Shown piece by piece: positions 3,701-39,719 of a DNA stretch of 41,082 nucleotides. Location: positions 1 through 41,082 of the IMG/VR virus record IMGVR_UViG_3300032333_000199; one strand, given 5' to 3'. Source of the stretch: a virus. Under the pieces are notes generated by a model. It did not search any database. It was given only the letters and a program-made list of their open reading frames with translations, and was not told the DNA's origin. The translations under genes and the position numbers were made by a program. Position 1 is the stretch's first letter; each line of letters opens with the position of its first letter.

Positions 3701-4704
3701 ATCACGATGATCCGCGCTATCAAGAAATCCCACGATGGGAAAAAGATTTATTTTGGATCATCCCCACAGATAATTGGCAGCCGGCAACGGCGGAAGAAGC
3801 TGACGGGCTTCCAAGTTATATGGTTCGCGCTAACGGGGATAAATTTGAAGTGAATAAGGGCGTCATCTATCGTTTGCCAAAACCGCAAGAACTTGGCGTG
3901 ATCTTTGGATCACTTCCGGAGCGAACACTAGAAGCTTTCTTTTCAGAACAGCCGGGCGCGTTTAAAGATTTCAATGAAACTATGGTAGGTCTTGTCACTC
4001 CGGCTTTTGTTCCGGATGCAGTTAGCCCCGCAATTGAACAGTATTTTAATAAGTCTTTATTCACCGGTCGGGATATTATTCCGAACCATTTAAAAGGGGT
4101 ACTCCCAGAATATCAGTTCGTCGAATACACTTCAGAAACCGCGAAGGCTTTGGGGAAAATGGTAGGGACCGTAAACCGCCAAACAGATTTTGCATCCCCT
4201 ATGGTTTTGCAAAATTATATTCAAAGCTGGGGCGGGTCTTTAGGGAAGTACGCAGTCCAGGTCGCGGATAAAGCGTTAACGGCTGCGGGCGTTGCGGAAA
4301 CAAAAAACCCAGCGTCGGGAACTTTGGCCGACATTCCTTTTATAAAATCTTTTGTAGTTCGTTACCCGATGGCGGGGACGAATTCAGTCCAGATGTTCCA
4401 AGATAGTTTTAAAGAAAATAAACAAGTCCTTGATACTATTAGACATCTTGCGCGCGAAGGTGACTTTAAAAATATGGAAAAGGAACTCGTCTTAAATTCA
4501 AACCAAGATAACCTGGTTAAGCTTGATGGAATCCAAGAAGCCCTTTCAAATCAATCGAATTTAATTAGGTTAGTTAATAAAAATCCCGATATGTCGCCAG
4601 ATGAAAAACGTCAGATCATCGATAGCACTTATTTGATGATGACGGAAGTCGCCAAACAGGGGAATAATTTAATGCAAGAACTTAAGAAACAACTGGGGGA
4701 ATAG
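796..4704 (+). CDS. Very large internal virion / ejection protein, T7 gp16-like position, LPD38-type
   Basis: At 1302 aa this is the largest protein of the phage, close to the length of T7 gp16 (about 1318 aa). Residues ~140-200 are a Gly/Ala stretch of GGxxG/GxxxG repeats, suited to membrane insertion. Residues ~770-900 contain TPDFIIRNFFRDTLTA, which I recognise as typical of the LPD38 domain found in phage virion proteins. Charged helical segments surround these. No lytic transglycosylase motif is apparent at the N-terminus, unlike T7 gp16. The probable role is to form part of the ejected channel across the host envelope. It overlaps the gene before it by one base (TAATG) and is followed immediately by the fibre gene. 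Confidence 0.75.
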   Translation: MVDTAPGVQEMASLQEAGFQPQEIEQWKADTTAQLQEAGFATTEVDEYFGIKNPDMANAKAVIDSNTQKNMAIVKPAAETTTAAAPELIQPEKPELKQADSFMEALEAGFDMSVVGLIKGKPDVILPEHAPMFYRIASQVGMMAGDIPAMIAGGIGGAVVGGAIGTGIGGAVGSVAPGIGTLGGGIGGGVIGREIGMGAGAMALPEAIRTVLMEHYEKGDVQSFSDFWERASAVFINSTKAAIIGGATMGVGGAVGQSLAKSTLPAVAKTTAQLTAEITTMTMVGSALEGKIPEPTEFLDAAVLMFGLKGAGMASTKIRSMYSKGNLSPVQVVEHAAKDPKFMQEMAAVNVETPRAPDLGLNPVKPTPPENISTVKPLKELNPNLSPEVNTILGKVTDQPEAKKSKLPSTDQIYTALVDKLDPINQATKILSEAKELPAADNPYVLARTAVDAPAKAKHIFENGTLDYRTLEKNGESLKSILKDVESVETLEAYMISKRVLEKSKQGLTTGFDVAAAEKVVAEHGKKYEAAAKRATDFQNRNLDYVADSGVLSKEQVARMKEANKDYVPFKRIMDVEDPSLGSKIKRQGKAGSLKEFKGSERDIQSPILSIVENTTELVKMAERNRPKQALIKLAEATEGQDLIKEVPARMKPIEVSASEIVSALEAEGANTIKALKKNLQEKGIKVDDETLLKAFEKEHPDNVLRTSQIKDITIFRKQQTDLAPNQFNVYIDGKRKVFETTPDLAEALKRIDGDTTSTNLLFKFMNGITTVKKIGITFTPDFIIRNFFRDTLTASTFSKSRGMNPLEIVQSMGDIIKKNDSYYNWLKSGGANGAFLDMGNRYVTTDIYQLQKQTGFMGSARNVIEKPFEVMRVAAELAEQSVRLTEFKNVRKAGGSLVEGGIASREITVDFQRVGAKVSALNSITAFMNVSIQGLDRTARAFKEDPSAVATKAVAYITVPSVLLWWANHDDPRYQEIPRWEKDLFWIIPTDNWQPATAEEADGLPSYMVRANGDKFEVNKGVIYRLPKPQELGVIFGSLPERTLEAFFSEQPGAFKDFNETMVGLVTPAFVPDAVSPAIEQYFNKSLFTGRDIIPNHLKGVLPEYQFVEYTSETAKALGKMVGTVNRQTDFASPMVLQNYIQSWGGSLGKYAVQVADKALTAAGVAETKNPASGTLADIPFIKSFVVRYPMAGTNSVQMFQDSFKENKQVLDTIRHLAREGDFKNMEKELVLNSNQDNLVKLDGIQEALSNQSNLIRLVNKNPDMSPDEKRQIIDSTYLMMTEVAKQGNNLMQELKKQLGE

Positions 4705-6558
4705 ATGTCTTTAGAAACAACAACAAACCGAAGCGAGTACTCAGGCAACGGCGTCACGACCGTGTTTTCGTTCCCCTATTATTTTTTGGCAAATGCTGAC
4801 CTTATTGTTATTTTACGAAATAACACGACGGGCGTCGGCGTGGTTCAAACGATCACCACAAATTACACGGTGACAGGTGCAGGTCTTGAAGCCGGCGGAT
4901 CTGTTACGATGATCGTCGCTCCGCCATCAGGTTACACTTTAATTATTTACCGAAGCCCATCAATCAAACAAGAAAAAGACTTTCGCGAAAATGATTCGAT
5001 GCCGGCTGAACAAATCGAAGAAGCTTATGATCTATTGACGATGCTCGTTCAACGGGTATCGGAACAAATCACCCGTGGACTTCGTGCCGCGGAAGAAGCG
5101 GTCCTTGGTAGTTTTAGTTTATTTTTACCGACCGATTTAAATGCGTCGGGATCTGAAGGAAAAACCTTGATCGTCAAAAGCGATCTTACAGGTTTTGAAA
5201 TGGGACCAACTGCGGATGAAATTGCAAACGCCCAACAGTACGCGCAGGACGCGTCAGACAGTGCGGATGATGCCGCCGATCAAGTGACATTAGCTGCGGC
5301 GCAGGTGGCCTTAGCAACGACTCAAGCGGGTAACTCTGCGACCTCGGCAACCGCTGCGGCGGCAAGTGCCGTCAATGCGGCAGCTTCGGCAGCGGCAGCT
5401 GCCGCAAGTTCCATCGCTTCACAGTGGAATGATGTTGTTTATTTAACTTTTGCAAATTCCCCGTACACGATCACCAACGGACAAGCCGGAACGATGTTCG
5501 AAGTAGACTGTACCGGCGGCGCGGTTACGATCAATCTTCCATCGATCGCCGCTTTAACATTGTCCGGCGCTTGGTCGATCGGGATTAAGAAAACTGATGC
5601 CAGCGCAAACGCGATCACAGTTGCCAGAAATGGAACTGACACGATCGACGGGAATACTTCTAAAACTATTTCACGACAGTCTTCGGGTTCTGCGTTTATC
5701 CCTGATACTGATGCGTCACCTGATAAATGGACGACAGTTACTTGGGGCGAAGTTTCAATCACCGGCGCCATCGTTGGAACAACTGACACGCAAGATTTAT
5801 CAAATAAAAAATTCACTGATGCTGTGTCGTTAACTGATATTTCAACGCCGTCGACTCCGGCATCCGGGGTTAAAAAAGTTTACGCTAAAACTGACGGCGT
5901 TTATTTTTTAAATAGTTCGGGCGCGGAAAGACGTTTAAATAATAAGGTTCCGACAATTCAAAAATTTACTAGTGGTTCCGGAACATACACGACGCCGTCG
6001 GGCGTTTCATATATTAGAGTTAGAGCACAGGGCGGCGGCGGCGGCGGCGGATCCGGCGGCGGCACATCGACAAACGGATCGACTGGCGCTGACACTACAT
6101 TCGGGCCGATCACAGCAAGTGCCGGCGGCGGCGGCGCAGGTTCTACAACTGCCGGAGTCGGCGGAGCGGCTGCGCTTGGTAGCGGTCCGGTAGGTCACGC
6201 GATGTCAGGTAACGCGGGATCGCCCGGAGCCTGTAACGTTGGGACGGCATCATTCACCCCATCCGGCGGCACAGGCGGCGCGGGCTTTTTTGGCGGCGCA
6301 GGTCCCGGCGGTGTTAGCGGTGGGCCGGGCAGTGCAGCGGCAGCGAATTCCGGTGCAGGCGGCGGCGGCGGTTCAGGAAACGCGGCAGCGGGGCCAGCGG
6401 CAGGCGGCGGCGGATCTGGCGGCTTCGTAGATGGAATAATCGACGCGCCATCGGCTACATACCTTTACAGTGTTGGTGCCGGCGGAGCGGGTGCGGCAGG
6501 TAGTGCCGCGGGCGGGAACGGTGGTTCTGGGGTCATCGTTGTCGAAGAGTATTATTAA
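4705..6558 (+). CDS. Tail fibre protein with T7 gp17-type N-terminus and glycine-rich tip
   Basis: This is a 617-aa receptor-binding tail fibre. Residues ~1-130 match the T7-type fibre attachment domain (YSGNGVTTVFSFPYYF near the start, then SPSIKQEKDFRENDSMPAEQ). Residues ~170-237 are an Ala-rich, heptad-like rod. The middle (~240-420) looks like beta-rich shaft or head modules. From about residue 420 it enters the glycine-rich domain (FTSGSGTYTTPSGVSYIRVR, then long GGGGG runs to ~610), a type found in phage adhesins and predicted to fold as polyglycine helices. The N-terminus docks to the tail and the C-terminus should contact the host. The start follows directly on the TAG of the previous gene. 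No separate chaperone gene is seen. Confidence 0.9.
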   Translation: MSLETTTNRSEYSGNGVTTVFSFPYYFLANADLIVILRNNTTGVGVVQTITTNYTVTGAGLEAGGSVTMIVAPPSGYTLIIYRSPSIKQEKDFRENDSMPAEQIEEAYDLLTMLVQRVSEQITRGLRAAEEAVLGSFSLFLPTDLNASGSEGKTLIVKSDLTGFEMGPTADEIANAQQYAQDASDSADDAADQVTLAAAQVALATTQAGNSATSATAAAASAVNAAASAAAAAASSIASQWNDVVYLTFANSPYTITNGQAGTMFEVDCTGGAVTINLPSIAALTLSGAWSIGIKKTDASANAITVARNGTDTIDGNTSKTISRQSSGSAFIPDTDASPDKWTTVTWGEVSITGAIVGTTDTQDLSNKKFTDAVSLTDISTPSTPASGVKKVYAKTDGVYFLNSSGAERRLNNKVPTIQKFTSGSGTYTTPSGVSYIRVRAQGGGGGGGSGGGTSTNGSTGADTTFGPITASAGGGGAGSTTAGVGGAAALGSGPVGHAMSGNAGSPGACNVGTASFTPSGGTGGAGFFGGAGPGGVSGGPGSAAAANSGAGGGGGSGNAAAGPAAGGGGSGGFVDGIIDAPSATYLYSVGAGGAGAAGSAAGGNGGSGVIVVEEYY

Positions 6559-10393: not shown

Positions 10394-12479
10394 TACGCCA
10401 TCCTTCGGCTCTAATAGGTAAGCCTGCGGCCCAGCTTGGGACGCGAGTTATTATCTTAACAACTTCTTCTAAAGATCCAAAGTTTTTTGGAACTTCGCAA
10501 ATCACTTCATCGTGAACGTGCGCTATAACGTAATAGCGCGCGGCTTCAAGTCTAAACATCGCATCCACTAACAAGTCACGACTAACGGCTTGCGTGATAT
10601 TTTCCGCAAGAAGTCCGCCGTAGGCCTTGCCGCGTTCCCACTTCTTAGTGTATGAGTCGACGCCCATATAAGTTAGCGTCGGTTTTTTAGTTGAATCTTC
10701 AAAGGCTGCGAGTGATTCGACTTGCGGGTAGGGATAACAAAGCACGCGGCCGCTTGGAAGTTTACACCAAAGCCAAGACCCGTTCTTTTTAAAAACAACT
10801 TGGCGACCTTGCGCGCCCGCGGTGTACTGGCGCCCAGTATTTTCGACGGCAAGAATCGCCGCGGTGTTTAGATCTTCCCAGTACTGAACAATACTAGAAT
10901 TCGACTCGCGCCAAAACTGCTTAATTAAATCAGATGCGTAAAACTCTTCGATCGAAATGTCGTGCTTTTTACCGTTCATATTATAAATAAATTCGGTCAT
11001 TCTTAAATTTTCTTCGGTGGCACGTTTTAAAACTGTCGGATATACGGGCGCAAGTTTTACGCCGTAGCCGCGAGACATCGTTTGAAATGCACCGACGCCG
11101 CCCTGATAACCAAGCGCAAGGACCGCAACTTTTCCAACCTGCCGGCGCGGATCGTCCTTAGTGATTTCGGAAACCTTTACGCCAAAAATTCCGGCGGCAG
11201 TTAATTCGTAAATTTTTCCATCGCCGCGGAAAACTTCTAAGACATTTTCTTGGCCCGCAAGCCAAGCCAAAACCCGGGCCTCAATGGCCGCAAAATCACA
11301 CGCTATCAAATCGTTTCCGGGTGCCGATCTTAAAAATCCCCGCACGCATTCACTCATTGCAGACATCGGCATAAGACCCATTTCGCGGATCTTGTCGCCA
11401 GACTTTGCGCCGTACTTATTTAAGTACTCAAAAATTTGATCGATCTGTTCTTGCTTTAAACTTTGGCGGGGAAGATTTTGTAATTGCACGCGGCGCCCGG
11501 CCCAGCGTCCGGTCGATGCCCCGTGATACTGGAAAAGCCCGCGCATCCGGCCGCCGATCGATGCCCCGTTAATCATAGCTTGAAGTTTGGCGGTCGAAGT
11601 TTTGGCCGCTTCCTGGCGCAGCAAAAGGGCCGTCCTTGCGTCATCAGGTAGCGGGCCTGATAACATCTCGGTCACGTCAGCCTTTGCCATTGACGGCGGT
11701 TTTAGGCCTTTAAATCGAAGCCAGTCGGCGATCTGCCCGGATGCTGTGCAAGTTGAGACGGCAGTCTTAGTCACTTCGTGCATTCTTTGATTTAATCTTT
11801 TCTTTTCAACTTCGACCAAATCAAAAGCGTGAAGTGCGGAAGTGCGGTCAACGTAAACGCCCCGGCGATTAATTTTGTAATCAAGTTCCCAGACTTTTTG
11901 TTCTGGCGGACTTAATCTTAAAAGCCTTTTTGCGAGCGCGCGTTCGACTTCGACGTCCATTTTGCAATAAGAATAAAGCTTTTCAAATTTTTCCGGTGCT
12001 TCTTTGTACTGCCAAAAAATCGGGGTGCCGTCCGCGGTGATGGCTTTTGGCTGTGAAAGCTGAAGCATAACCCGATGCCCGGCCATATCTTTTTGATAAG
12101 CGATCCCGGCTGCGCGACTTGCGTCGTCTAATGATCCGGGTAAGCCCATCGCATAAGCCATCGACATAGTACATTCACACTGATCGATTTTAAGTTCTGG
12201 CCATCCGTAATTTAAAGTCATCACGTAATTCCAAATCAACATTTCAAACCCACCGATGTTGTGTCCGTAAACTTTTCCGCCGCTTGCGATGTGCTTTAAC
12301 AAGCGAATTGGCGGGAGCGGCATCGTCGGCACCCATAGTAAAATGGGCTCGTCGTTGAATGCGTAAGCCAAACAAAGCGCGTCGGTCGTCCCGTCCTGCG
12401 CGTAAACATCCGCGCCGCATTTCAAAAGATCGGCGGCGGATTTGGTTTCAAAATCGATGTGAACAAAATCTTTGGTCAT
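10374..12479 (-). CDS. DNA polymerase, family A, with 3'-5' exonuclease
   Basis: This 701-aa replicative polymerase carries an exonuclease motif, HIDFET, at residues 7-12. The polymerase motifs are in order: motif A ACDFAAIEARVLAWLAG at ~390, motif B (O-helix) RRQVGKVAVLALGYQGG at ~445 with the expected R, K and Y, and motif C HVHDEV at ~650. The aspartates of A and C bind the two metals. The length is near that of T7 gp5 (704 aa), and there is no 5'-3' nuclease domain. Its start overlaps the end of the methyltransferase gene (ATGA) and its end overlaps the primase-helicase start, forming a replication operon. Confidence 0.95.
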   Translation of the reverse strand: MTKDFVHIDFETKSAADLLKCGADVYAQDGTTDALCLAYAFNDEPILLWVPTMPLPPIRLLKHIASGGKVYGHNIGGFEMLIWNYVMTLNYGWPELKIDQCECTMSMAYAMGLPGSLDDASRAAGIAYQKDMAGHRVMLQLSQPKAITADGTPIFWQYKEAPEKFEKLYSYCKMDVEVERALAKRLLRLSPPEQKVWELDYKINRRGVYVDRTSALHAFDLVEVEKKRLNQRMHEVTKTAVSTCTASGQIADWLRFKGLKPPSMAKADVTEMLSGPLPDDARTALLLRQEAAKTSTAKLQAMINGASIGGRMRGLFQYHGASTGRWAGRRVQLQNLPRQSLKQEQIDQIFEYLNKYGAKSGDKIREMGLMPMSAMSECVRGFLRSAPGNDLIACDFAAIEARVLAWLAGQENVLEVFRGDGKIYELTAAGIFGVKVSEITKDDPRRQVGKVAVLALGYQGGVGAFQTMSRGYGVKLAPVYPTVLKRATEENLRMTEFIYNMNGKKHDISIEEFYASDLIKQFWRESNSSIVQYWEDLNTAAILAVENTGRQYTAGAQGRQVVFKKNGSWLWCKLPSGRVLCYPYPQVESLAAFEDSTKKPTLTYMGVDSYTKKWERGKAYGGLLAENITQAVSRDLLVDAMFRLEAARYYVIAHVHDEVICEVPKNFGSLEEVVKIITRVPSWAAGLPIRAEGWRNERYRK

Positions 12480-13390
12480 TGCAAACCCATTAAAATTTCA
12501 AAAGCTGTTTTTACTTGCAAAGGGACGACCCCATTTCCAAGGGCTTTAATTCGGTCCACCCTAAAGGCAGACCCATCAACCACTCGACCCACGTTGGGTT
12601 CAGTTTTCCACCAAGTTTTTCGCATAAAGTTGTCTTGCTCCCGCGATCCACTACTTTCGCGGGCTCCCGGCCCGCTTCGCTCGCCCTGGGCGTCGGGAAT
12701 AATAGAACTGCATCGTTCAAATTGCGGCTCCACCCTTGAGAATTTTTCCGTTGGGCCCGCAGTGAATCCGGGTGATCCCCCGATCTGAAATCCCGCGCTT
12801 GCGGAGTCGGCCAAAGACCGGTAGCCGCCATCGAGTTTAGACTCTTTTTTGAAATCTGTTTTCCCTTGCGAATCCCGTTGCCGTTCGACCCGTAGGAGCT
12901 CGCCGTCGGCGTGGGCAAGTAAGAACCAACGCTCGCGTTTGTGGGGAGCGCCAACGCTTGCGGCAGATAAACAAATCCACCGACAGTCATACCGTATTTC
13001 GGAAAATGCTTTGATAACTTGGTCAAGTCCCCTAGTTCTAATGGCTGGCACATTTTCAAGGAAGACAAAAGCCGGTCGAATTTCTTTTGTAAGTCGGATA
13101 ATTTCAAAGAATAATCCGCTTCGCTCGCCGCCCAAACCTTTTCCAATTCCTGCGACGCTAATGTCTTGGCACGGGAATCCGCCGTAAATAATTTCACAAA
13201 CCCCAAATTCACCTCTGACGTTTCGGACGTCGCTAAGAATAGGAGCTCGGCGGAGAGATCCGTCGGCCATTCGACTTGCGATAATTTTTTGGGCGTATTT
13301 TTCGATTTCGACATATGCTATAGGTTCCACGTAATTTTTTAGAGCTAAACTGATTCCGCCGTATCCGGTGAATAGATCGAGCCCCGTCAT
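12476..13390 (-). CDS. C5-cytosine DNA methyltransferase (Dcm-type)
   Basis: This 304-aa enzyme transfers methyl from SAM to cytosine C5 in DNA. Motif I is DLFTGYGGIS (5-14), motif IV is GGFPCQD with catalytic Cys74, motif VI is ENV at 112-114, motif VIII is KRERW at 151-155, and motif X is GNGVVP at 285-290. The target-recognition region between VIII and IX is short and contains ADA/ADS/PDA-type repeats. No restriction partner is encoded nearby, so the likely role is protection against host restriction or marking phage DNA. AAGGA precedes the ATG. A second long ORF lies inside it in the +1 frame (12511-13314). Confidence 0.93.
   Translation of the reverse strand: MTGLDLFTGYGGISLALKNYVEPIAYVEIEKYAQKIIASRMADGSLRRAPILSDVRNVRGEFGVCEIIYGGFPCQDISVAGIGKGLGGERSGLFFEIIRLTKEIRPAFVFLENVPAIRTRGLDQVIKAFSEIRYDCRWICLSAASVGAPHKRERWFLLAHADGELLRVERQRDSQGKTDFKKESKLDGGYRSLADSASAGFQIGGSPGFTAGPTEKFSRVEPQFERCSSIIPDAQGERSGPGARESSGSREQDNFMRKTWWKTEPNVGRVVDGSAFRVDRIKALGNGVVPLQVKTAFEILMGLQ
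12511..13314 (-). CDS. Nested overlapping ORF inside the methyltransferase gene, PTP-repeat family
   Basis: This 267-codon frame is open entirely within the C5-methyltransferase gene, same strand, +1 frame, starting at methyltransferase codon 26. The product has three PTP repeats (LPTPTASS, LWPTPQARDF, LFPTPRASE) and the C-terminal GGKLNPTWVEWLMGLPLGWTEL. I recognise these as hallmarks of a family often annotated in phages as methylase-like or hypothetical. Nothing in it is a known catalytic motif. It is much longer than any other shadow frame here (next is 173 codons). The start has only weak GGAA about 13 bases upstream. It may be a real overlapping gene or a recurrent shadow of this methyltransferase family. 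Confidence 0.45.
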   Translation of the reverse strand: MSKSKNTPKKLSQVEWPTDLSAELLFLATSETSEVNLGFVKLFTADSRAKTLASQELEKVWAASEADYSLKLSDLQKKFDRLLSSLKMCQPLELGDLTKLSKHFPKYGMTVGGFVYLPQALALPTNASVGSYLPTPTASSYGSNGNGIRKGKQISKKSLNSMAATGLWPTPQARDFRSGDHPDSLRAQRKNSQGWSRNLNDAVLLFPTPRASEAGREPAKVVDRGSKTTLCEKLGGKLNPTWVEWLMGLPLGWTELKPLEMGSSLCK

Positions 13391-13990
13391 TTAAGTCCTT
13401 AAAATTGAAATGCCGCGCGGGCTTGGAAGTTCAACGATCGGAAGGCTAACGTGATCGGCAAGTTTCATCGGGCCGAACGGGTGCTTTTCTGATGTGTCGT
13501 GAATCATAACGACTGAACCTTTAGGGAATTTTTCGATAATTAAATTCACTTCTTGCGGGCGCACGGGGATGTCGGTGTCAGAAAATAATAAGTACTGCAA
13601 TTTTTCTGAAGGTTCCGCGAGTTTTAAATACTCGATCGAGTGCATATCGTTAACAAACGTTAACGGAAGATCGTGTTTTGATGCGATAAAGCGCGACATC
13701 GGGGGATCTTTGGCAAGATCAACCGTAATGACGTGGCCTTTTCCAAGGTCCTTGCACGCAGCCGCCATCACTAAAGCTGAACAGCCTTGGGATGTACCTA
13801 GTTCAATGATGACATCGGGGCGCGTTCCCCAAATTGTCCCAGCTAAAAACATCGCTTCTTCAATTGATACCGCTCCGCCGCCAGGTTTTACCATTCTATA
13901 TTCTTTACCGCGCGGAAGCGTTGGATGACAGTCCTTATCGTCGACACCTAGGTCCGTCAAAACTGCATCTAAATTTTTTAAATAATTCAT
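13391..13990 (-). CDS. Class I SAM-dependent methyltransferase (Methyltransf_24 / CmcI-like)
   Basis: This 199-aa protein has a Rossmann-type SAM site: motif I IIELGTSQGCSALVMAAA at ~80-97, then the acidic second strand end HVITVDLAKD. A later acidic motif, LLFSDTDIP, and VVMIHDTSEKHPFG resemble O-methyltransferase / cephalosporin-hydroxylase-like proteins. The substrate is unknown; these proteins often act on sugars or small molecules rather than DNA. It sits between a 97-aa protein (ATGA overlap) and the C5-methyltransferase, whose ATG follows its stop directly. It could add to nucleotide or glycan modification, but nothing in the sequence fixes the substrate. Confidence 0.8.
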   Translation of the reverse strand: MNYLKNLDAVLTDLGVDDKDCHPTLPRGKEYRMVKPGGGAVSIEEAMFLAGTIWGTRPDVIIELGTSQGCSALVMAAACKDLGKGHVITVDLAKDPPMSRFIASKHDLPLTFVNDMHSIEYLKLAEPSEKLQYLLFSDTDIPVRPQEVNLIIEKFPKGSVVMIHDTSEKHPFGPMKLADHVSLPIVELPSPRGISILRT

Positions 13991-25079: not shown

Positions 25080-25505
25080 TTATCTCGCTTTCTTAAAAGT
25101 AAGGTGATGCAGGACATCGCCTTGATACCGGGCCGCAAAGTATTCATTAAAATCTTCACACGCCAAATAGTCACCTGATTCTAACTGATAAGCGTAATTA
25201 TTCGGACAATAGATTGAATTTTGGCCCTTGCTTTCAACGGCAGGGGGATTTAACAATAGAAAACAGAACAAAAACACTATCAAAAGGACCATTTTATGCA
25301 ATCTTGGAACAAGGCTAAATCGATTGATTCCCAAACCAAAAATGCAGACACCAAGACACAGCCAAAGGACGACGGCGCTGAAAAATCCGCGCTTAAAGCT
25401 GCCCAGTTTTTGAAGACAGGCGGAATGCCAGAAGATAAATCGAATTCCGATGATTCGAAACAAGATCCAAACAGCAAAAATAAATCCAATAAGAAGTAAG
25501 CTCAT
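25080..25505 (-). CDS. Secreted or membrane protein, early operon
   Basis: This 141-aa frame has several hydrophobic segments (residues ~1-25, ~40-60 and ~72-86) and a C-terminal domain of ~50 residues with two cysteines (IYCPNNYAYQLESGDYLACEDF). AGG lies five bases before the first ATG, and the start follows the lipoprotein stop closely. A shorter start at the Met near residue 72 would give a 70-aa secreted protein with signal peptide VLLIVFLFCFLLLNPPAVES. The N-terminal half lies opposite a credible plus-strand ORF (25296-25499), so the true start is uncertain. Confidence 0.55.
   Translation of the reverse strand: MSLLLIGFIFAVWILFRIIGIRFIFWHSACLQKLGSFKRGFFSAVVLWLCLGVCIFGLGINRFSLVPRLHKMVLLIVFLFCFLLLNPPAVESKGQNSIYCPNNYAYQLESGDYLACEDFNEYFAARYQGDVLHHLTFKKAR
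25296..25499 (+). CDS. Candidate antisense small protein, hydrophilic
   Basis: This 67-aa frame is on the strand opposite its neighbours. It is hydrophilic and disordered (K, S, D, N, Q rich; ends SKNKSNKK). AAAGGACC lies eight bases before the ATG, the best Shine-Dalgarno site in this stretch. It overlaps the N-terminal half of the 25080-25505 gene on the other strand. Either that gene starts downstream of this one, or one of the two is not real. Confidence 0.4.
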   Translation: MQSWNKAKSIDSQTKNADTKTQPKDDGAEKSALKAAQFLKTGGMPEDKSNSDDSKQDPNSKNKSNKK

Positions 25506-25511
25506 TTTAAC

Positions 25512-25985
25512 CTACGGTCTTTTATTAAAAACGGCTGTTTGTGTGTCATCATCGCAGGTGATTCCTAGTTGAATCCCTTTTAATTCAATCCTACAACTGT
25601 GAACTGAAGTTCCCATACAAAGCCCGCCGTGACTCATATCTATTGTTAACGATGTAGAGCCATCAGCTATTTTCGGCTGCGTAAAGCTGCCAACGTATCC
25701 GCAACTTGTTTCCGTTAAATTACAGTAGTTTGTTAACGTTAAAACCGATCCACTGACATAAGCATTATCGTAAGTTCCCGCGAGCTCCGCGCAGCTTATT
25801 ACCGGATTCTTTGGCGTACTTGGCGCCGGATCTGACGAACCTTTCGCGCATCCCATAACGTTTATGATGACTATAATAGTCAATAAATGCCGAATAAGAT
25901 CGAAATATTGAAAAATGTTTATGTGCCCCTGTCTATAGGCCCAAACTGCATTTTTGATTCGTAACTCTCTATTTAATTTGTCCAC
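25512..25985 (-). CDS. Phage-encoded lipoprotein
   Basis: This 157-aa protein has a hydrophobic signal segment (residues ~30-45, LLTIIVIINVMG) with the lipobox-like VMGC and Cys at ~46, then a Ser/Pro linker (AKGSSDPAPSTPKNP). The mature domain of ~90 residues has six cysteines (SCAELAGTYDNAY, YCNLTETSCGY, GGLCMG, CRIELK, TCDD) and is probably disulphide-bonded in the periplasm. The GTG start at 25985 has AAGGAG six bases upstream and is favoured over the ATG 21 codons before it. It is the first leftward gene, so it is likely expressed early. A superinfection-exclusion role is possible. Confidence 0.75.
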   Translation of the reverse strand: MDKLNRELRIKNAVWAYRQGHINIFQYFDLIRHLLTIIVIINVMGCAKGSSDPAPSTPKNPVISCAELAGTYDNAYVSGSVLTLTNYCNLTETSCGYVGSFTQPKIADGSTSLTIDMSHGGLCMGTSVHSCRIELKGIQLGITCDDDTQTAVFNKRP

Positions 25986-26116
25986 TGTTAACTCCTTCTT
26001 TGTTAGCTTATCGGTCGGTTTACTTATAGCTTGAGAGTTAACTTGCACTTCAAGCTTAAGGCCTAATTTGATTCAAACCTATTGATTAATAGCTCTAAAA
26101 CGTGTCAAATCGATAA
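25986..26116. promoter_or_regulatory. Divergent control region between the two gene arms
   Basis: The lipoprotein gene leads left and the terminase gene leads right from here, so both arms need promoters nearby. It contains an inverted repeat, AGCTTGA (26028-26034) with TCAAGCT (26050-26056), 15 bp apart. On the minus strand TATAAG overlaps the left arm and TTGAAG lies 19 bp upstream, a weak promoter match. I found no good rightward -35/-10 pair. Confidence 0.45.
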
Positions 26117-26635
26117 ATGTCAGACAATTATAAGCTGCCAAAAGCCCCGAAATATACGGACGAACAGTTGCAAAAAGCCATTGAATTGGCCTCAAAAGGC
26201 GAGCCATTTAAGGTTATAATCGACGAAGCGATGTTAGATAGCGAATATTCGTTCTGGGTCTACCGTCAACAGTACCTAGACTTCAGCAACGCATTCGAAC
26301 AGGCGCGTCAAGAAGGGCTTGAACACCTTGCTGATGGCCTAATCGACGCACATAAGACTGAACAGGATGTGCAGCGCGCACGCTTAAAATCAGATAACGC
26401 AAAATGGTTATTGTCGAAAAGAAAACCGACGGTTTATGGGGACAAAGTTGACATCCACGTTTCGCAAACGATCGACATCGGACATGCGTTGACCGAAGCC
26501 CGAAAACGTGCACTTCCGCAGTTAAGTGGAATTGATCCGGTCGAAGTTGAATTCAAAGATTTAGATGTATCGAAAAATGGGGATGCGGAAGAAATTAAGC
26601 TTCCGAAGGTTAGGGGATCGGATCCGCGGGAGTAA
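26117..26635 (+). CDS. Terminase small subunit
   Basis: This 172-aa protein recognises the packaging start on phage DNA and hands it to the large subunit. Its N-terminal helical segment (YTDEQLQKAIELASKGEPF...) and later QARQEGLEHLADGLI, then RLKSDNAKWLLSKRKPTVYGDKVDI, are the hallmarks of phage terminase small subunits of the Terminase_5/gp1-like group. The C-terminus is acidic and flexible. It is the first gene of the rightward arm. The large subunit follows about 2 kb later, separated by three genes. Confidence 0.85.
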   Translation: MSDNYKLPKAPKYTDEQLQKAIELASKGEPFKVIIDEAMLDSEYSFWVYRQQYLDFSNAFEQARQEGLEHLADGLIDAHKTEQDVQRARLKSDNAKWLLSKRKPTVYGDKVDIHVSQTIDIGHALTEARKRALPQLSGIDPVEVEFKDLDVSKNGDAEEIKLPKVRGSDPRE

Positions 26636-27004: not shown

Positions 27005-27331
27005 ATGTCAAAAAATCAAAAAGCCGAAAAGACGAAATGTCAACGCTGCGACTCGACCGAAATCGCGGTCGCCGTTGATCACTCTAATAAACATTATTGT
27101 CAGAAGTGCCAGCACGTTTGGGTCCCTGGCCTTGAAGGTATGAAACGCGAAGATGTCTTGATCACCCACTTAAAAACCGAAAACATGGGGATCAAACTTG
27201 AAATCGATAAGTTGCGAAAAGAAAACCTTGGCCTTGTAAGCCAAGTTAAAAAGCTGGAAAAAGAAGTCGCTACGTTAAAAGGTGAAGAAATCACAGATGA
27301 CGCCGCGGCTGAACTCGAGATGTTTACCTAG
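27005..27331 (+). CDS. Zinc-ribbon coiled-coil protein
   Basis: This 108-aa protein has a CxxC...CxxC zinc ribbon (C12, C15, C32, C35; KCQRCDST and YCQKCQHVW), followed by a coiled coil (~55-95, TENMGIKLEIDKLRKENLGL...) and an acidic tail. Zinc ribbons of this type bind nucleic acid or polymerase. Its position between the terminase genes is not a standard one. The start follows the leader interval. Role unknown; a late-transcription or packaging function is possible. Confidence 0.7.
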   Translation: MSKNQKAEKTKCQRCDSTEIAVAVDHSNKHYCQKCQHVWVPGLEGMKREDVLITHLKTENMGIKLEIDKLRKENLGLVSQVKKLEKEVATLKGEEITDDAAAELEMFT

Positions 27332-27438
27332 ACCTGTCAAGGGGCCGCGGTTGAATGCCGACTCGGTGTGAACTCCATTTTTCACAAAGGGATTAAGGGG
27401 AATGACTTTTAACTGCGGTCCTGCGACTTAAGGACATT

Positions 27439-28443
27439 ATGCTAATTACGAATCCAAACTTCAGACCCGGAACACAAACAGAAGCTCGCGACGTTATTTT
27501 TTCTATGATGATGGAACACGAATCAAGCGCGGCCCTGGGCGATATGATCGCGTGGATGTCATCGATTATTTACACGGCTAAAAATTATGATTATGTGAAC
27601 GGGCATTTAATAGTGCCGCTTTATTTTTTACCCGTGGCGCAGAAATTAATGAAACCCTTTTCTAACTGGAATGTTTACACCGAAATCCCAGATCGTTTCG
27701 CGAATGGAACGCAGATCAAACGACCGATGCCCCACCCTATCAATGCGACAGGCATGCACCTTGTCGATCTGGGATTTCTATATTTTCTAGGAATCGTCCC
27801 GCCGCCGGAAGGTTCTGACGTCTATCCGGTTTTAGATCTATCCGACGTTAAATCCCCGATCGAGCGATTAGAAGCGATTGATGATTATGTCGTGATGACT
27901 CCCGGAGCTACGACCGTCACGCGCCAAATGCCGCCAAGTGTGTTTAATAAAATCTGTCACGAACTTAAATCGCGCGGGGTGACGCCAGTCTTTTTAGGTG
28001 ATGCCAAGATGAAAGGGCGCACGATTATTTTTGATGAACGTTACGATCTATCACTGGGAATAAATCTTATTGGAAAAACGACCCTACTAAAAGCCGCCAA
28101 AGTGATGTCAGCCGCAAAGGCTGTGATCGGAATTGATAACGGGCTTTTGCATTTGGCCGCGTTAACTGATGTTCCGATCATCTACGGCTTTACGATGACA
28201 GGCCCTACACAAAGACGAATCAATCGCGTCGCTGGAATTACGGTTGAACTTCACGCTAATAAAAAAGATTTGCCGTGCTTATTCTGCCAGGAAAACATTA
28301 GATTTTTTATTGATCATCATTTTACAAATTGCATCTACAAAGAAAACGAACCGAAATGCGTGAAGGCCCTTAACGCCGAATCGTGGTTAATAAATTTAGA
28401 ACCCATCTTGAAAGGTAAGTATGACCGAAGATCGCTTAATTAA
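27439..28443 (+). CDS. GT9-like glycosyltransferase (heptosyltransferase superfamily)
   Basis: This 334-aa protein has the C-terminal donor-binding part of GT9 enzymes: an ADP-heptose/UDP-sugar type segment VIGIDNGLLHLAALTDVPIIYGFT at ~229-252, read in parts as VIGIDNGLLHLAAL and VPIIYGFTMTGP. A Gly/Pro-rich TPGATTVTRQMP segment near 153 precedes it. A late C-terminal cluster PCLFCQEN...NCIYKENEPKCVKAL has four cysteines. It could glycosylate a phage structural protein or DNA, or alter host lipopolysaccharide. It lies between the small and large terminase genes. Confidence 0.7.
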   Translation: MLITNPNFRPGTQTEARDVIFSMMMEHESSAALGDMIAWMSSIIYTAKNYDYVNGHLIVPLYFLPVAQKLMKPFSNWNVYTEIPDRFANGTQIKRPMPHPINATGMHLVDLGFLYFLGIVPPPEGSDVYPVLDLSDVKSPIERLEAIDDYVVMTPGATTVTRQMPPSVFNKICHELKSRGVTPVFLGDAKMKGRTIIFDERYDLSLGINLIGKTTLLKAAKVMSAAKAVIGIDNGLLHLAALTDVPIIYGFTMTGPTQRRINRVAGITVELHANKKDLPCLFCQENIRFFIDHHFTNCIYKENEPKCVKALNAESWLINLEPILKGKYDRRSLN

Positions 28444-28699
28444 AACTGGGGAAGAAGTTGTTTTAGTTTTTTCAATTATCAAACGTGAAGACTATGATAA
28501 ATTAAAAATCCCAAACGGCAGCTATTCAAAGGCCATCGAACTCGGCCCCGTCGAAGAGTTAACGAATATGGAAAACTGCAAAGGCTGGGGCGCCTGGGTC
28601 GGCATTTCACTTGGAAAGCTGGGCCGGAAACTTTGCCCAGAAATTTTTAAGATCAATAATCCGAACGGGCCGAAGCTTGCCACGCCGCCGGGGATGTAA
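28421..28699 (+). CDS. Hypothetical protein beside the large terminase
   Basis: This 92-aa protein overlaps the glycosyltransferase end by 23 bp and the large terminase start by one base (TAATG). It has a beta-like start (EEVVLVFSIIKREDYDKL) and a Trp-rich CKGWGAWVGISLGKLG. No family is recognised. Translation is probably coupled to both neighbours. Confidence 0.7.
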   Translation: MTEDRLIKTGEEVVLVFSIIKREDYDKLKIPNGSYSKAIELGPVEELTNMENCKGWGAWVGISLGKLGRKLCPEIFKINNPNGPKLATPPGM

Positions 28700-30240
28700 T
28701 GCAAAATAGCCCCTACAGCGTAAAAGACGATCAAAGGTTGATGACTGAAATCTGGGATCCGGCTATCGCCGAAGACCCTTACGCCTTTGTTATGTTTGCG
28801 TTCCCTTGGGGTAAAGAAGGCACGCCACTTGAAAAATTCAAAGGCCCGCGGTCTTGGCAGATCAAAGAATTAAAAGCGATTGCAAAGCACATCAAGGCGA
28901 ACAAGGCCCGCATGGCCCGCGGCGAAACGCCGATCGTTTATCAGTCAGCAACCGCAAGCGGCCGGGGGATCGGAAAGTCTGCCCTTGTCGCTTGGCTTAA
29001 TCTTTGGTTTATGTCGTGCGTCCTTGGCGGCACTTCGATCGTAACAGCCAATTCAGAATCACAGTTAAAATCTAGAACGTGGGCCGAAGTCGGAAAGTGG
29101 CACACACTTTTAATTAATTCCCACTGGTTTGAAAAAACGGCCCTGTCAATTCGTCCCGCCGGGTGGTTTGAAGAAGCTTTAAAAAAACAATTAAAAATTG
29201 ATACCGGATACTTTTACGCCCAGGCCCAGGTCTGGACCGAAGAAAATCCCGACGCGTTTGCTGGCGCCCACAATATGAATGGGTTAGTTTTATTTATGGA
29301 CGAAGCTTCGGGAATCCCAAAGCCGATCTGGACCGTATCGGAAGGATTTTTTACTGAACCTTCACTACACCGATACTGGTTCGTGTTTTCAAATCCCCGC
29401 CGTAATACGGGGGAGTTTTACGAATGCTTCCATAAGTCGCGCGAATTTTGGAATCGAAGAAATGTTGATTCCAGAACGGTCGAAGGGACGGATCAAGATG
29501 TCTATAAAAGAATTATTGCAAAGCATGGGGAAGATTCTGACGAAGCTCGTATCGAGGTCAAAGGCGAATTCCCCCGACAAGGGGATCATCAGTTCATCTC
29601 ACGGGAAGTTGTCGAAGCGGCCGCGCACCGTGAAGTTGAACCAGATCACTACGCGGGGCTTATTATGGGCGTCGATATTGCAAGATTCGGAGACGATACC
29701 ACGGTCATACGATTTCGCCGAGGTCGCGACGCTCGATCTATCGCCCCTATCAAGCTCAAAGGCAAAGACAATATGCAAGTCGCGAACGAATGCGCGTACT
29801 TAATTGAATTACATAAACCTGATGCGGTCTGCATCGATGCCGGAAACGGAACGGGCGTCATCGACCGACTTCGTGAAATGGGATTTAAAGTTATCGAAGT
29901 TTGGTTTGGTTCAAAGGCCAAAGAAGAAGAGTGGTCGGATTATCGCACAGAACTTTGGGCTTTAGTTCGCGAGTGGCTGCCAGGCGGTTGCATCGATGAT
30001 GACACCGATTTAAAAGACGATCTTGTCGGGCCTGAATATGAATTTGATAAGTTCGAGCGCGTGAAGCTTGAATCAAAAGAAAAAATGAAATCCCGCGGGC
30101 TTGCTTCGCCAGATAATGGTGATGCGCTGGCGGTAACGTTTGCGACTAAAGTGGCGCGTGCGGATTCGAAGTTATCTCGCTTTAGAAAACAAGGCCAAAA
30201 CCAAGCGGCCGGAACGGATTACGATGTTTTTGGAAACTGA
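28699..30240 (+). CDS. Terminase large subunit
   Basis: This 513-aa packaging motor has an N-terminal ATPase: Walker A SGRGIGKS at ~88-95 and Walker B VLFMDEAS at ~197-204, with the catalytic Glu. The C-terminal nuclease of RNase H fold has IMGVDIARFGDD at ~322-333 and CIDAGNG at ~377, then a late GDALAV at ~473 that supplies further acids. It translocates DNA into the prohead and cuts it at the ends. The length and order fit phage large terminases. The GNAT gene starts before its stop codon. Confidence 0.95.
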   Translation: MQNSPYSVKDDQRLMTEIWDPAIAEDPYAFVMFAFPWGKEGTPLEKFKGPRSWQIKELKAIAKHIKANKARMARGETPIVYQSATASGRGIGKSALVAWLNLWFMSCVLGGTSIVTANSESQLKSRTWAEVGKWHTLLINSHWFEKTALSIRPAGWFEEALKKQLKIDTGYFYAQAQVWTEENPDAFAGAHNMNGLVLFMDEASGIPKPIWTVSEGFFTEPSLHRYWFVFSNPRRNTGEFYECFHKSREFWNRRNVDSRTVEGTDQDVYKRIIAKHGEDSDEARIEVKGEFPRQGDHQFISREVVEAAAHREVEPDHYAGLIMGVDIARFGDDTTVIRFRRGRDARSIAPIKLKGKDNMQVANECAYLIELHKPDAVCIDAGNGTGVIDRLREMGFKVIEVWFGSKAKEEEWSDYRTELWALVREWLPGGCIDDDTDLKDDLVGPEYEFDKFERVKLESKEKMKSRGLASPDNGDALAVTFATKVARADSKLSRFRKQGQNQAAGTDYDVFGN

Positions 30241-30685
30241 AAATCTTAGTTTTATGCAAGCTAAACTCCCGATTCACCTTGATGAAATGGAAGAGCTTAT
30301 CGCCAAAAATCACGAAGAGACGGGCGTTTATGATCTGCCTTTTAACCCAGACCGCGAAAGATATTTAGGGTTATGGAATAGCGGGGATCTAGCCTTTTTT
30401 ACGGTTCACCATACCAAAACTTTAAAACTTGTAGGCTTTGCCCTGTTCTTTCTTGATAATGAAATTCAACAGAAAGATGTAAAATCCGCGACCCAGTCCT
30501 TGAATTTTATTGAAAAAGAATATCGCGGCGCGGGATACACATTCATGAAGTTCTGTGATGACATACTTAAAAAACAAGGGGTTAATAGTATATGGCGTCA
30601 AACGTCAGCCAAGTTCGACATCGGAAAGATTTACGAACGAATGGGCTATGAACTCGTAGAAAAATCTTATCTAAGGAGACTATAG
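30224..30685 (+). CDS. GNAT-type acetyltransferase, between terminase and portal
   Basis: This 153-aa protein has the GNAT core: strand FTVHHTKTLKLVGFALFFLD, then IEKEYRGAGYTFMKFCDDIL as the acetyl-CoA loop (R-G-x-G-Y) and the C-terminal YERMGYELVEKSYLRRL strand. The start at 30224 overlaps the terminase gene by 17 bp; a longer in-frame start at 30140 would overlap more and is less likely. Such GNATs are seen near the packaging genes of podoviruses. A second GNAT lies at 39276, with a similar end (RRGFKMAERAYLKE). The substrate is unknown. Confidence 0.75.
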   Translation: MFLETENLSFMQAKLPIHLDEMEELIAKNHEETGVYDLPFNPDRERYLGLWNSGDLAFFTVHHTKTLKLVGFALFFLDNEIQQKDVKSATQSLNFIEKEYRGAGYTFMKFCDDILKKQGVNSIWRQTSAKFDIGKIYERMGYELVEKSYLRRL

Positions 30686-36750: not shown

Positions 36751-39279
36751 GTGCCAAAAGTTTCACCTATGCAAACCAGTTTTGGTGGGGGCGAGTTTAG
36801 TCCTTTACTGAACGGCCAAGTAGATTTAGATCGTTATAAACAGGCCCTAGAAATTTGTGAAAATTATATTCCGTCTTTACAAGGCGGGCTTGTTCGTAGG
36901 TCCGGCACAAAATTCGTGGCAGAAGCCAAGAACGCGGGCACTGCGGCCCGCCTTGTGCCTTTTGAATTTTCAACGACTCAAGCTTATATTTTAGAATTTG
37001 GCGATCAGTACATTCGATTTTTCCGTGACAACGGGCAAATCGTGTCAGGCATGGCCGCTTATGAAATCGCGTCGCCTTACTTGGCGGCCGATCTTTTTGA
37101 ATTACGTTTTACACAGTCGGCGGATGTTCTTTACATCGTGCACCCAGGCTATGCGCCGCGGACCCTTTCACGCTACGCACACACGAACTGGGTTTTAGCT
37201 GAACCGTTTTTACAAGACGGTCCTTATCTTCCTATAAATGCGACGGCGTACTCTTTGACCCCAAGTGCTGCGACCGGAAACGGCGTTACACTTATCGCAA
37301 GCGGAACGATTTCAATTTCTGGCGCCGCAAATAACGGCTCCGGCGGAATTCGAATTACGACCGCAGCCCCGCACGGCTTCGCCGATCAGCAAAAAATTTC
37401 GATAACGGGAGTGACCGGAACGACAGAAGCTAACGGCGAATGGCGGATGACTTACATCGGCGCTTCTACTTTTGATCTACAGAATTCAACCTTTGTTCAC
37501 GCCTACACTGCCGGCGGAACAATTTTTCCAGCGATATTTAATTTAAATGATGTTGGCCGTCTTGTCAGACTTCGCGAGGGGTCTAACTGGGGATGGTTTA
37601 AAATTACGGCAGTCGGTCACGGGGGCTTTGTCACCGGCGACGTGGTCGTCTCTTTAACAAACACAAACCCTAAAACCTTTTGGCGCCTGGGCGTTTGGTC
37701 GCCCGCTGAAGGTTATCCCGCTTGCGTGACGTTTCACGAAGATCGATTATTTTTTGGGGGCGCAACGAATGCGCCACAAAGAATCGACGCAAGCGCCCCA
37801 GGGGATTACAACGACTTTGCGCCGAGTGATTTGGCGGGCGTCGTAACGGCATCAGATGCCCTTAGCTTTGTCTTTAACGCAAACGACGTGAATGCAGTTC
37901 GTTGGATCATTTCAGATGAAAAAGGTTTACTTGTTGGAACGGCTGGCGGCGAATGGCTAGTGCGCCCGTCATCGCAAGGTGAAGCTTTAACGCCGACAAA
38001 CATCACCGCAAAACGTTCAACGAAATACGGATCCGCAAACGTGCAAGCGGTACAGTTCGGAAAATCTGTTTTATTCTTACAAAAAGCCGGACGTAAAGTT
38101 CGGGAACTTGCTTACTATTTTGATGCTGACGGTTTTCGCGCGGCGGATCTTACACTACTTGCGGAACACATCACCAAAGGCGGCATCGTTGAGATGTCGA
38201 CCCAGAACGAACCGCAGCCAATTCTTTGGAGTGTTCGCGCTGACGGAACTTTGGCCGCCCTTACTTACGAGCGGGATTCGGATTCTTTTAAAGTCGGCTG
38301 GCACCGGCATGTTGTCGGCGGGCGTTCAGATGCAGCCGGCACCCAGGCCCAAGTCGAAAGCGTCGCAGTCATTCCGTCATCAGATGGAACAAGCGCCGAA
38401 CTTTGGTTACTTATTAAACGCTACATCGACGGCGCAGTCGTTAGACATGTCGAGTATATGATGCCGATGTTTGACGATGAAACTGAACAAAAGGACGCGT
38501 TCTTTGTGGATGCGGGTTTAACTTACGACGACCCGGTCACGATTTCTGCGATCACGCGCGCAAACCCTGCCGTCGTAACCGCGAATTCACACGGGTACAG
38601 TAACGGCGACAAAGTTTTATTTTCTGAAATCTTAGGTTTGATCAATGATTCAGACAACGATGAAACTTCAGATCTAAATGATATGAGTTTTTTAATAAAA
38701 AATAAAACCGCAAACACTTTTGAAATTACTGATCTTGATGGGACTAATATTGATACATCAGGTTATGACACGGCTTACGTGTCGGGCGGAAAAGTTAGAA
38801 AATACATCCAGACCATTTCGGGCCTTGATCACTTAGAAGGTGAAACGGTCGACATCTTGGCTGACGGCGCGGTACAACCGAGCCGAACAGTTTCAAGTGG
38901 ATCGATCACGCTTGCGGTAAAAGCAACGACCGTGCAAATCGGTTACGGCTTTGCTTCGCGTGGAAAAATGTTAAGACTGAATGCGGGCGCGGCTGATGGA
39001 ACTGCAATCGGGAAAACGCAGCGAACGCACCGAATGGGAATTATGCTTCATAGATCCCTTGGTCTTAAAATCGGAACGTCGTTTGAATCTTTAACGGAAC
39101 TTACATTTAGAACCGCTTCTGACAAAATGGGTCGGGCGACGGCGCTTTTTACCGGGATTAAATCCGAAGAGCTAGAAGGCGACTACGATTTTGAAAATCA
39201 ATTTTGCTTCGAACAAAGTCAACCTTTGCCAAGCATGGTCTTGGCACTTATGCCACAGATGCACACGCAGGACAGATGA
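36751..39279 (+). CDS. Tail tube protein B, T7 gp12-type nozzle
   Basis: This 842-aa protein begins QTSFGGGEFSPLLNGQVDLDRYKQAL, then NYIPSLQGGLVRRSGTKFV, a signature of podovirus nozzle proteins. Later it has FHEDRLFFGGATNAPQRIDAS and SSQGEALTPTNITAKRSTKYG, also seen in gp12-like proteins. It forms the hexameric tail nozzle to which the fibres attach. The GTG start has TAGGAG seven bases upstream. Its length is near T7 gp12 (794 aa). Its stop overlaps the next gene (ATGA). Confidence 0.94.
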   Translation: MPKVSPMQTSFGGGEFSPLLNGQVDLDRYKQALEICENYIPSLQGGLVRRSGTKFVAEAKNAGTAARLVPFEFSTTQAYILEFGDQYIRFFRDNGQIVSGMAAYEIASPYLAADLFELRFTQSADVLYIVHPGYAPRTLSRYAHTNWVLAEPFLQDGPYLPINATAYSLTPSAATGNGVTLIASGTISISGAANNGSGGIRITTAAPHGFADQQKISITGVTGTTEANGEWRMTYIGASTFDLQNSTFVHAYTAGGTIFPAIFNLNDVGRLVRLREGSNWGWFKITAVGHGGFVTGDVVVSLTNTNPKTFWRLGVWSPAEGYPACVTFHEDRLFFGGATNAPQRIDASAPGDYNDFAPSDLAGVVTASDALSFVFNANDVNAVRWIISDEKGLLVGTAGGEWLVRPSSQGEALTPTNITAKRSTKYGSANVQAVQFGKSVLFLQKAGRKVRELAYYFDADGFRAADLTLLAEHITKGGIVEMSTQNEPQPILWSVRADGTLAALTYERDSDSFKVGWHRHVVGGRSDAAGTQAQVESVAVIPSSDGTSAELWLLIKRYIDGAVVRHVEYMMPMFDDETEQKDAFFVDAGLTYDDPVTISAITRANPAVVTANSHGYSNGDKVLFSEILGLINDSDNDETSDLNDMSFLIKNKTANTFEITDLDGTNIDTSGYDTAYVSGGKVRKYIQTISGLDHLEGETVDILADGAVQPSRTVSSGSITLAVKATTVQIGYGFASRGKMLRLNAGAADGTAIGKTQRTHRMGIMLHRSLGLKIGTSFESLTELTFRTASDKMGRATALFTGIKSEELEGDYDFENQFCFEQSQPLPSMVLALMPQMHTQDR

Positions 39280-39719
39280 TTACAGTAAGAGATGCTTTTT
39301 ATTCAGATATTGATTGGATCTTTGAACAGTGCGAAGCTTTTGCCAAATTCTACGGATCAAAAATCAGCTTGGCGGCAAATCCGGAATACGGAAAAAAATT
39401 TTTAGAAAGTCTTGTCGATAATCATTTTATAAAAATCGGCGAAGTTGACGGCAGACCCGCGGGCTTTATTGCGGGGCTTGTATCACCCCATCACTTTAAC
39501 CCAGACATCATTCAACTGACCGAGCTTCTTTGGTGGGTGCCTGAACTAGACCGTGGAACAGGGGTCGGCGCGGAACTTTTTGAAGAGTTTCTAACTTTCG
39601 GCGAAACTAAATGTAATTGGATCACGTTCACCTTAGAACATAATTCCCCGGTCAGAGATTCATTTCTTTTACGCCGCGGGTTTAAAATGGCCGAACGTGC
39701 TTACTTGAAGGAGTGTTAA
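39276..39719 (+). CDS. GNAT-type acetyltransferase, virion operon
   Basis: This 147-aa protein is GNAT-like: MITVRDAFYSDIDWIFEQCE, then IKIGEVDGRPAGFIAGLVS, with the acetyl-CoA loop area VPELDRGTGVGAELFEEFLT (R-G-T-G-V-G) at ~88-107. The C-terminal SFLLRRGFKMAERAYLKEC matches GNAT ends. The start at 39276 overlaps the nozzle stop; a longer start at 39204 would lie inside the nozzle gene. Proteins like this occur in the internal core region of some podoviruses. Whether it acts as an enzyme in the virion or the cell is unknown. Confidence 0.78.
   Translation: MITVRDAFYSDIDWIFEQCEAFAKFYGSKISLAANPEYGKKFLESLVDNHFIKIGEVDGRPAGFIAGLVSPHHFNPDIIQLTELLWWVPELDRGTGVGAELFEEFLTFGETKCNWITFTLEHNSPVRDSFLLRRGFKMAERAYLKEC

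Follow-up and report, generated by a model that had tools for sequence, protein, structure and literature searches.

The window, that is, the whole stretch of viral DNA that was analysed (41,082 nucleotides, IMG/VR record IMGVR_UViG_3300032333_000199), is podovirus-like. It encodes a head-tail connector (PF12236), a capsid protein (PF19821; 34151-35035), a nozzle (PF25675) and a tail fibre (4705-6558), and no tRNA was found in it. A GT9 glycosyltransferase gene lies among the terminase genes:

26117-26635, + strand: small terminase (TerS), Sf6 type (PF20901, 1.1e-15; phrog_1482, 2e-22)
27005-27331, + strand: gene for a zinc-ribbon/coiled-coil protein (PF06827, 2e-4)
27439-28443, + strand: GT9 glycosyltransferase gene, intact from ATG to stop, 334 aa
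28276-28359, + strand: four-cysteine finger of the GT9 protein, C280, C283, C298 and C307 (C-x2-C-x14-C-x8-C)
28421-28699, + strand: gene for a 92-aa protein without a known family; it overlaps both neighbours, at the GT9 stop and at the TerL start
28699-30240, + strand: large terminase subunit (TerL; phrog_2, 3.9e-38)
30140-30685, + strand: GNAT-type acetyltransferase gene following TerL (phrog_1249, 6.5e-8)

An earlier note on this DNA had placed the GT9 gene between the two terminase genes. It does lie between TerS and TerL, but not directly, as the zinc-ribbon/coiled-coil gene and the 92-aa gene intervene. In the neighbourhood table the zinc-ribbon/coiled-coil gene is found upstream of TerL in relatives both with and without GT9, and in one relative without it (L017) it immediately precedes TerL. 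The 92-aa gene is limited to GT9 loci and one further locus (L170), which has a DUF6445 gene and is missing its upstream part. An AAGGA sequence (27430-27434) lies just 5' of the GT9 ATG, and sequences resembling promoters or terminators are, in the surroundings of the gene, not above about chance expectation. Late expression of the GT9 gene is suggested by its position alone. A second small GNAT-like gene, recognised by eye and with no Pfam match, follows the nozzle gene (39276-39719, + strand).

The product scores 53.9 bits against Pfam PF01075 (Glyco_transf_9; cut-off 22, E 2.1e-14), a cut-off that five further divergent homologues tested also exceed. It falls below the NCBIfam equivalog cut-offs for heptosyltransferase II (WaaF; 41.1 bits vs 134.6) and heptosyltransferase I (WaaC; 38 bits vs 185.3), and it does not reach that of the autotransporter heptosyltransferases (TIGR04414; 17 bits vs 200). 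An AlphaFold2 model built from 17 sequences has a pLDDT of 88.8 and a pTM of 0.90. In a Foldseek search of the PDB its best matches are all GT9 enzymes with a GT-B fold (3tov, 4rap/4rb4, 1psw and 2h1h). By TM-score the nearest solved fold is TibC, a protein O-heptosyltransferase (0.67-0.71, rmsd 4.3-6.4), with WaaF (0.60), 3tov (0.59) and WaaC (0.52-0.57), the E. coli WaaF and WaaC structures among them, farther away. By E-value, 3tov, a Veillonella GT9 of untested function, is slightly ahead of TibC. Both the heptosyltransferase-like character given to this protein in the earlier note and the GT-B fold for which it had proposed a structure search are thus borne out. The gene is real and correctly located rather than a chance reading frame, because 17 homologues share 17 invariant residues, the model is good and the best-matching folds are those of GT9 enzymes.

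The protein represents a new branch of this known enzyme family. Its IMG/VR homologues are 29-53% identical to it, and the genome collection gave a single match, on a 5-kb contig from a Planctomycetota MAG where there is a helicase-like gene as well; the scans of both collections rely on short sequence patterns, so that distant members may escape. A phage-protein profile gives branch members at least 118 bits and the sampled bacterial GT9s at most 43. None of the PHROGs families fits the branch. Searching 50,697 annotated phage records by tblastn with the window protein gave one weak partial match and nothing else. This match, MT837749, was rejected as a branch member: the scaffold (6.3 kb, unannotated) encodes a GT9 of the bacterial type, with short cysteine spacing. 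Two GT9s of uncultured Caudovirales in BFVD (A0A6J7WHE7 and A0A6J5SVC1) are also phage proteins, but they are only 14-18% identical to that of the window. As judged by sequence, then, the 17 homologues form a little-known, almost entirely phage-borne GT9 branch, far from the sampled bacterial GT9s.

The likely active site can be described by comparison with TibC, with residue equivalences taken from a profile alignment and counted along the printed alignment. In TibC, Asp-110 is the catalytic base and Lys-230 binds phosphate (PMC4358343). D35 of the window protein (27541-27543, + strand), in the GD of the N-lobe, aligns with Asp-110 and is the candidate catalytic Asp. T158 aligns with Thr-226 and is predicted to bind phosphate, and R162 (27922-27924, + strand), invariant in 17 of 17 sequences, takes the place of Lys-230. 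Farther along is D-N-G-L-L-H (D233-H238; 28135-28152, + strand), which fits the D-x-G-x-x-H donor-site motif of the WaaC/WaaF type. The catalytic Asp, the phosphate-binding residues and those of the D-x-G-x-x-H motif are kept across the homologues.

TibC belongs to the bacterial autotransporter heptosyltransferases (the TibC/AAH or BAHT group of GT9). The window protein resembles them in its GT-B fold (best TM-score about 0.70) and in the positions just described, but it is not one of them. Arg-286 and Trp-305, conserved in the BAHTs, are replaced by A219 and H238, and Pro-300 corresponds to D233. The BAHT N-terminal beta-barrel of about 97 residues is also missing: with D35 equivalent to Asp-110, just about 20-25 residues would precede the N-lobe, which leaves no room for it. 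Together with the low TIGR04414 score, these differences rule out BAHT membership. Since Arg-286 and Trp-305 are replaced, the donor site is predicted to be that of an LPS heptosyltransferase, of WaaC/WaaF type, while the modelled fold as a whole is nearer TibC.

TibC, too, has four cysteines, in an iron finger (Cys339/342/358/370) that is required for its dodecamer and activity. The spacings are similar (C-x2-C-x14-C-x8-C in the window, C-x2-C-x15-C-x11-C in TibC). All four cysteines are kept in 16 of the 17 homologues. The remaining one (L101, 5956-6900) has lost the whole set, although its active-site motifs are retained; such a joint loss fits a single metal site, and the window finger would presumably bind a metal. 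The cluster had been thought unusual, but most sampled bacterial GT9s carry four cysteines there. At least 19 of the 29 that were parsed, all from one phylum, have C-x2-C-x4..5-C-x4..6-C in the C-terminal part, a lower bound because a few rows took the wrong ORF, and the cluster sits after the D-x-G-x-x-H motif in rows where both could be parsed. A four-cysteine cluster therefore appears ordinary for GT9, and only its long, TibC-like spacing is notable.

What, then, is the acceptor? One candidate is the LPS core, or another surface glycan of the host, altered for example against superinfection or the re-adsorption of virions. The classical acceptor of the GT9 family is LPS; the N-lobe GD and the D-x-G-x-x-H motif are common to WaaC, WaaF and the window protein, and HMMER matches it to both. 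For a huge phage, an annotated heptosyltransferase I has been interpreted along these lines (PMC10747093). However, the protein is far under the WaaC and WaaF cut-offs and lies in another gene setting, and its nearest fold is TibC rather than either of them. The late, terminase-linked position would also leave new LPS little time before reaching the surface. A further argument comes from a membrane-like and lipoprotein-like gene pair (25080-26048, - strand), present in all four of the GT9-bearing clade relatives tested and in no GT9-lacking one. The pair and some small genes are the only GT9-limited items in the gene-content table, but they are confounded with phylogeny and kinship explains the pattern equally well. 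An LPS acceptor is the main rival to a protein acceptor, though itself rather doubtful. The lipoprotein-like product has a VMGC lipobox, seen by eye, and the two genes might be a superinfection-exclusion pair or mere clade markers.

The gene order in relatives bears on all of the readings. In a table built from contigs found through TerL, the window, L003, L004, L007/L008 and L010 have GT9 between TerS and TerL, and the homologue locus L093 shows this arrangement as well. It adjoins TerL in L006 and L020, and in L001 it follows TerS on a contig that ends before TerL. Nevertheless, GT9 is absent from 15 of 18 related records, L017 among them. That such a gene is not usual in a packaging operon, as had been noted before, therefore stands for the wider group, but in this clade it is a recurring occupant of the slot. 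Because it recurs upstream of TerL in relatives and is missing from other close relatives, GT9 is a clade-typical accessory gene. On a TerL tree its presence label needs five changes, but several of the rows without it are contigs cut before the slot and the gain and loss counts are therefore unreliable. Depending on the relative, the slot also holds a tyrosine-integrase-like, CHAP, DUF5675, methyltransferase or DUF6445 gene, and a papain-family cysteine protease gene lies within the TerS-TerL interval of the GT9-bearing L093 (4169-5443).

Not all homologues are found there. In L095 and L096 the gene lies in the replication module, between the genes for the ssDNA-binding protein and the DNA polymerase; L097 ends just past its homologue, and that of L098 is near JAB and ThiF genes. 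In L098 the JAB-like peptidase gene (below the Pfam cut-off) and the ThiF/E1-like gene are adjacent (3728-5394), shortly upstream of GT9.

With contents this variable and GT9 missing from many relatives, perhaps the gene is merely cargo, a moron with no functional tie to virion or packaging that might, for instance, glycosylate a protein of the host or some small molecule. An active site intact over 29-53% identity, which indicates long conservation, and the repeated recurrence in the TerS-TerL slot argue against this, and we consider it possible but unlikely.

The neighbours suggest a more specific role. A Methyltransf_11 gene is next to or near GT9 in L007, L100 and L101, and beside it in the latter two. 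For P. aeruginosa prophages, too, GT9 is listed with a methyltransferase in the same genome (PMC10449497). Four loci have DUF6445 genes, all in the TerS-TerL slot or directly 5' of the 92-aa gene and TerL:

L001, 9408-9980: DUF6445 gene
L003, 6685-7278: DUF6445 gene
L004, 9346-9927: DUF6445 gene
L170, 1-378: DUF6445 gene

The products in L001, L003 and L004 share an invariant HxD...H...R set. Such a set is typical of 2OG-Fe(II) oxygenases, and by this motif DUF6445 is a putative member of that class; the structure model is poor (pLDDT 44) and the sequence has no convincing match among solved structures. Methyltransferase or putative 2OG-oxygenase neighbours point to a tailoring cassette.

Could the acceptor be DNA? 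A GT9 enzyme might glycosylate hydroxymethylated bases of the phage genome, as the alpha- and beta-glucosyltransferases (AGT and BGT) of T4 do. Those phage enzymes also have a GT-B fold, the window has genes for a C5-cytosine methyltransferase and a dNMP kinase, and the L095 and L096 homologues are in the replication module. However, no DNA glucosyltransferase is among the PDB fold matches listed. 5-methylcytosine has no hydroxyl to glycosylate, so that a C5-methyltransferase alone gives no acceptor. Moreover, neither PF00303 (thymidylate synthase/dCMP hydroxymethylase) nor PF12851 (Tet_JBP) was found in the 13 GT9-bearing phage records, several of them fragments. Because these 13 lack a hydroxymethylase or TET/JBP gene, DNA modification was rejected and is highly improbable. 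Of the three targets first proposed for the enzyme, virion protein, DNA and LPS, DNA is therefore disfavoured, whereas protein and LPS remain. The C5-cytosine methyltransferase gene of the window adjoins a Methyltransf_24/CmcI-like methyltransferase gene. The two (12476-13990, - strand) lie between the genes for the ssDNA-binding protein and the DNA polymerase, which is where GT9 is found in L095 and L096.

The best reading, a tentative one that falls a little short of an even chance, is that the enzyme glycosylates a phage protein, and such an acceptor is somewhat favoured over LPS. The closest fold by TM-score is that of a protein heptosyltransferase, the finger has the long spacing of TibC and is lost as a unit in L101, and potential tailoring genes lie adjacent or near (Methyltransf_11 in L007, L100 and L101; DUF6445 in L001, L003 and L004). 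The gene is also among the head genes, overlapping the 92-aa gene that itself overlaps TerL. Glycosylation of phage virions is known in the cluster F1 mycobacteriophages Che8 and Rita, where, as far as the account cited in PMC11256854 goes, phage-encoded transferases are linked to a capsid-protein glycan; these are other phages with another gene position. Some observations do not fit. The L095 and L096 homologues are not among virion genes, the predicted donor site is of LPS-heptosyltransferase type (A219, H238) and 3tov is above TibC by E-value. In addition, no structural gene in the gene-content table co-varies with GT9 independently of phylogeny.

On the best reading, the product would be a working, inverting GT9 enzyme of the GT-B type, very probably using an ADP-heptose-type donor from a Gram-negative host. 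The sugar would be moved onto a hydroxyl group with D35 as the base, while R162 and T158 would hold the phosphate. As in TibC, the C-terminal four-cysteine metal finger may shape how the enzyme dimerises or binds its acceptor. That acceptor would most likely be a phage protein, probably a virion component, and GT9 would belong to a small set of exchangeable tailoring genes that occupies the TerS-TerL slot in this podovirus clade. One could go further and imagine that this phage branch, with its TibC-like finger and LPS-type donor site, heptosylates a podovirus virion protein that the products of neighbouring genes hydroxylate or methylate beforehand or at the same time, which would make the terminase locus the site of a virion-glycan tailoring cassette. 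This is speculative, and improbable in its full form.

Whichever the acceptor, the TerS-TerL interval of these podoviruses is marked as a slot for tailoring genes. If the acceptor were the LPS core, the enzyme would provide a late block to superinfection. If it is a virion protein, heptosylation of the phage particle by a TibC-like enzyme would add a new and testable example to phage virion glycosylation, this time in Gram-negative surroundings and remote from the mycobacteriophage cases.
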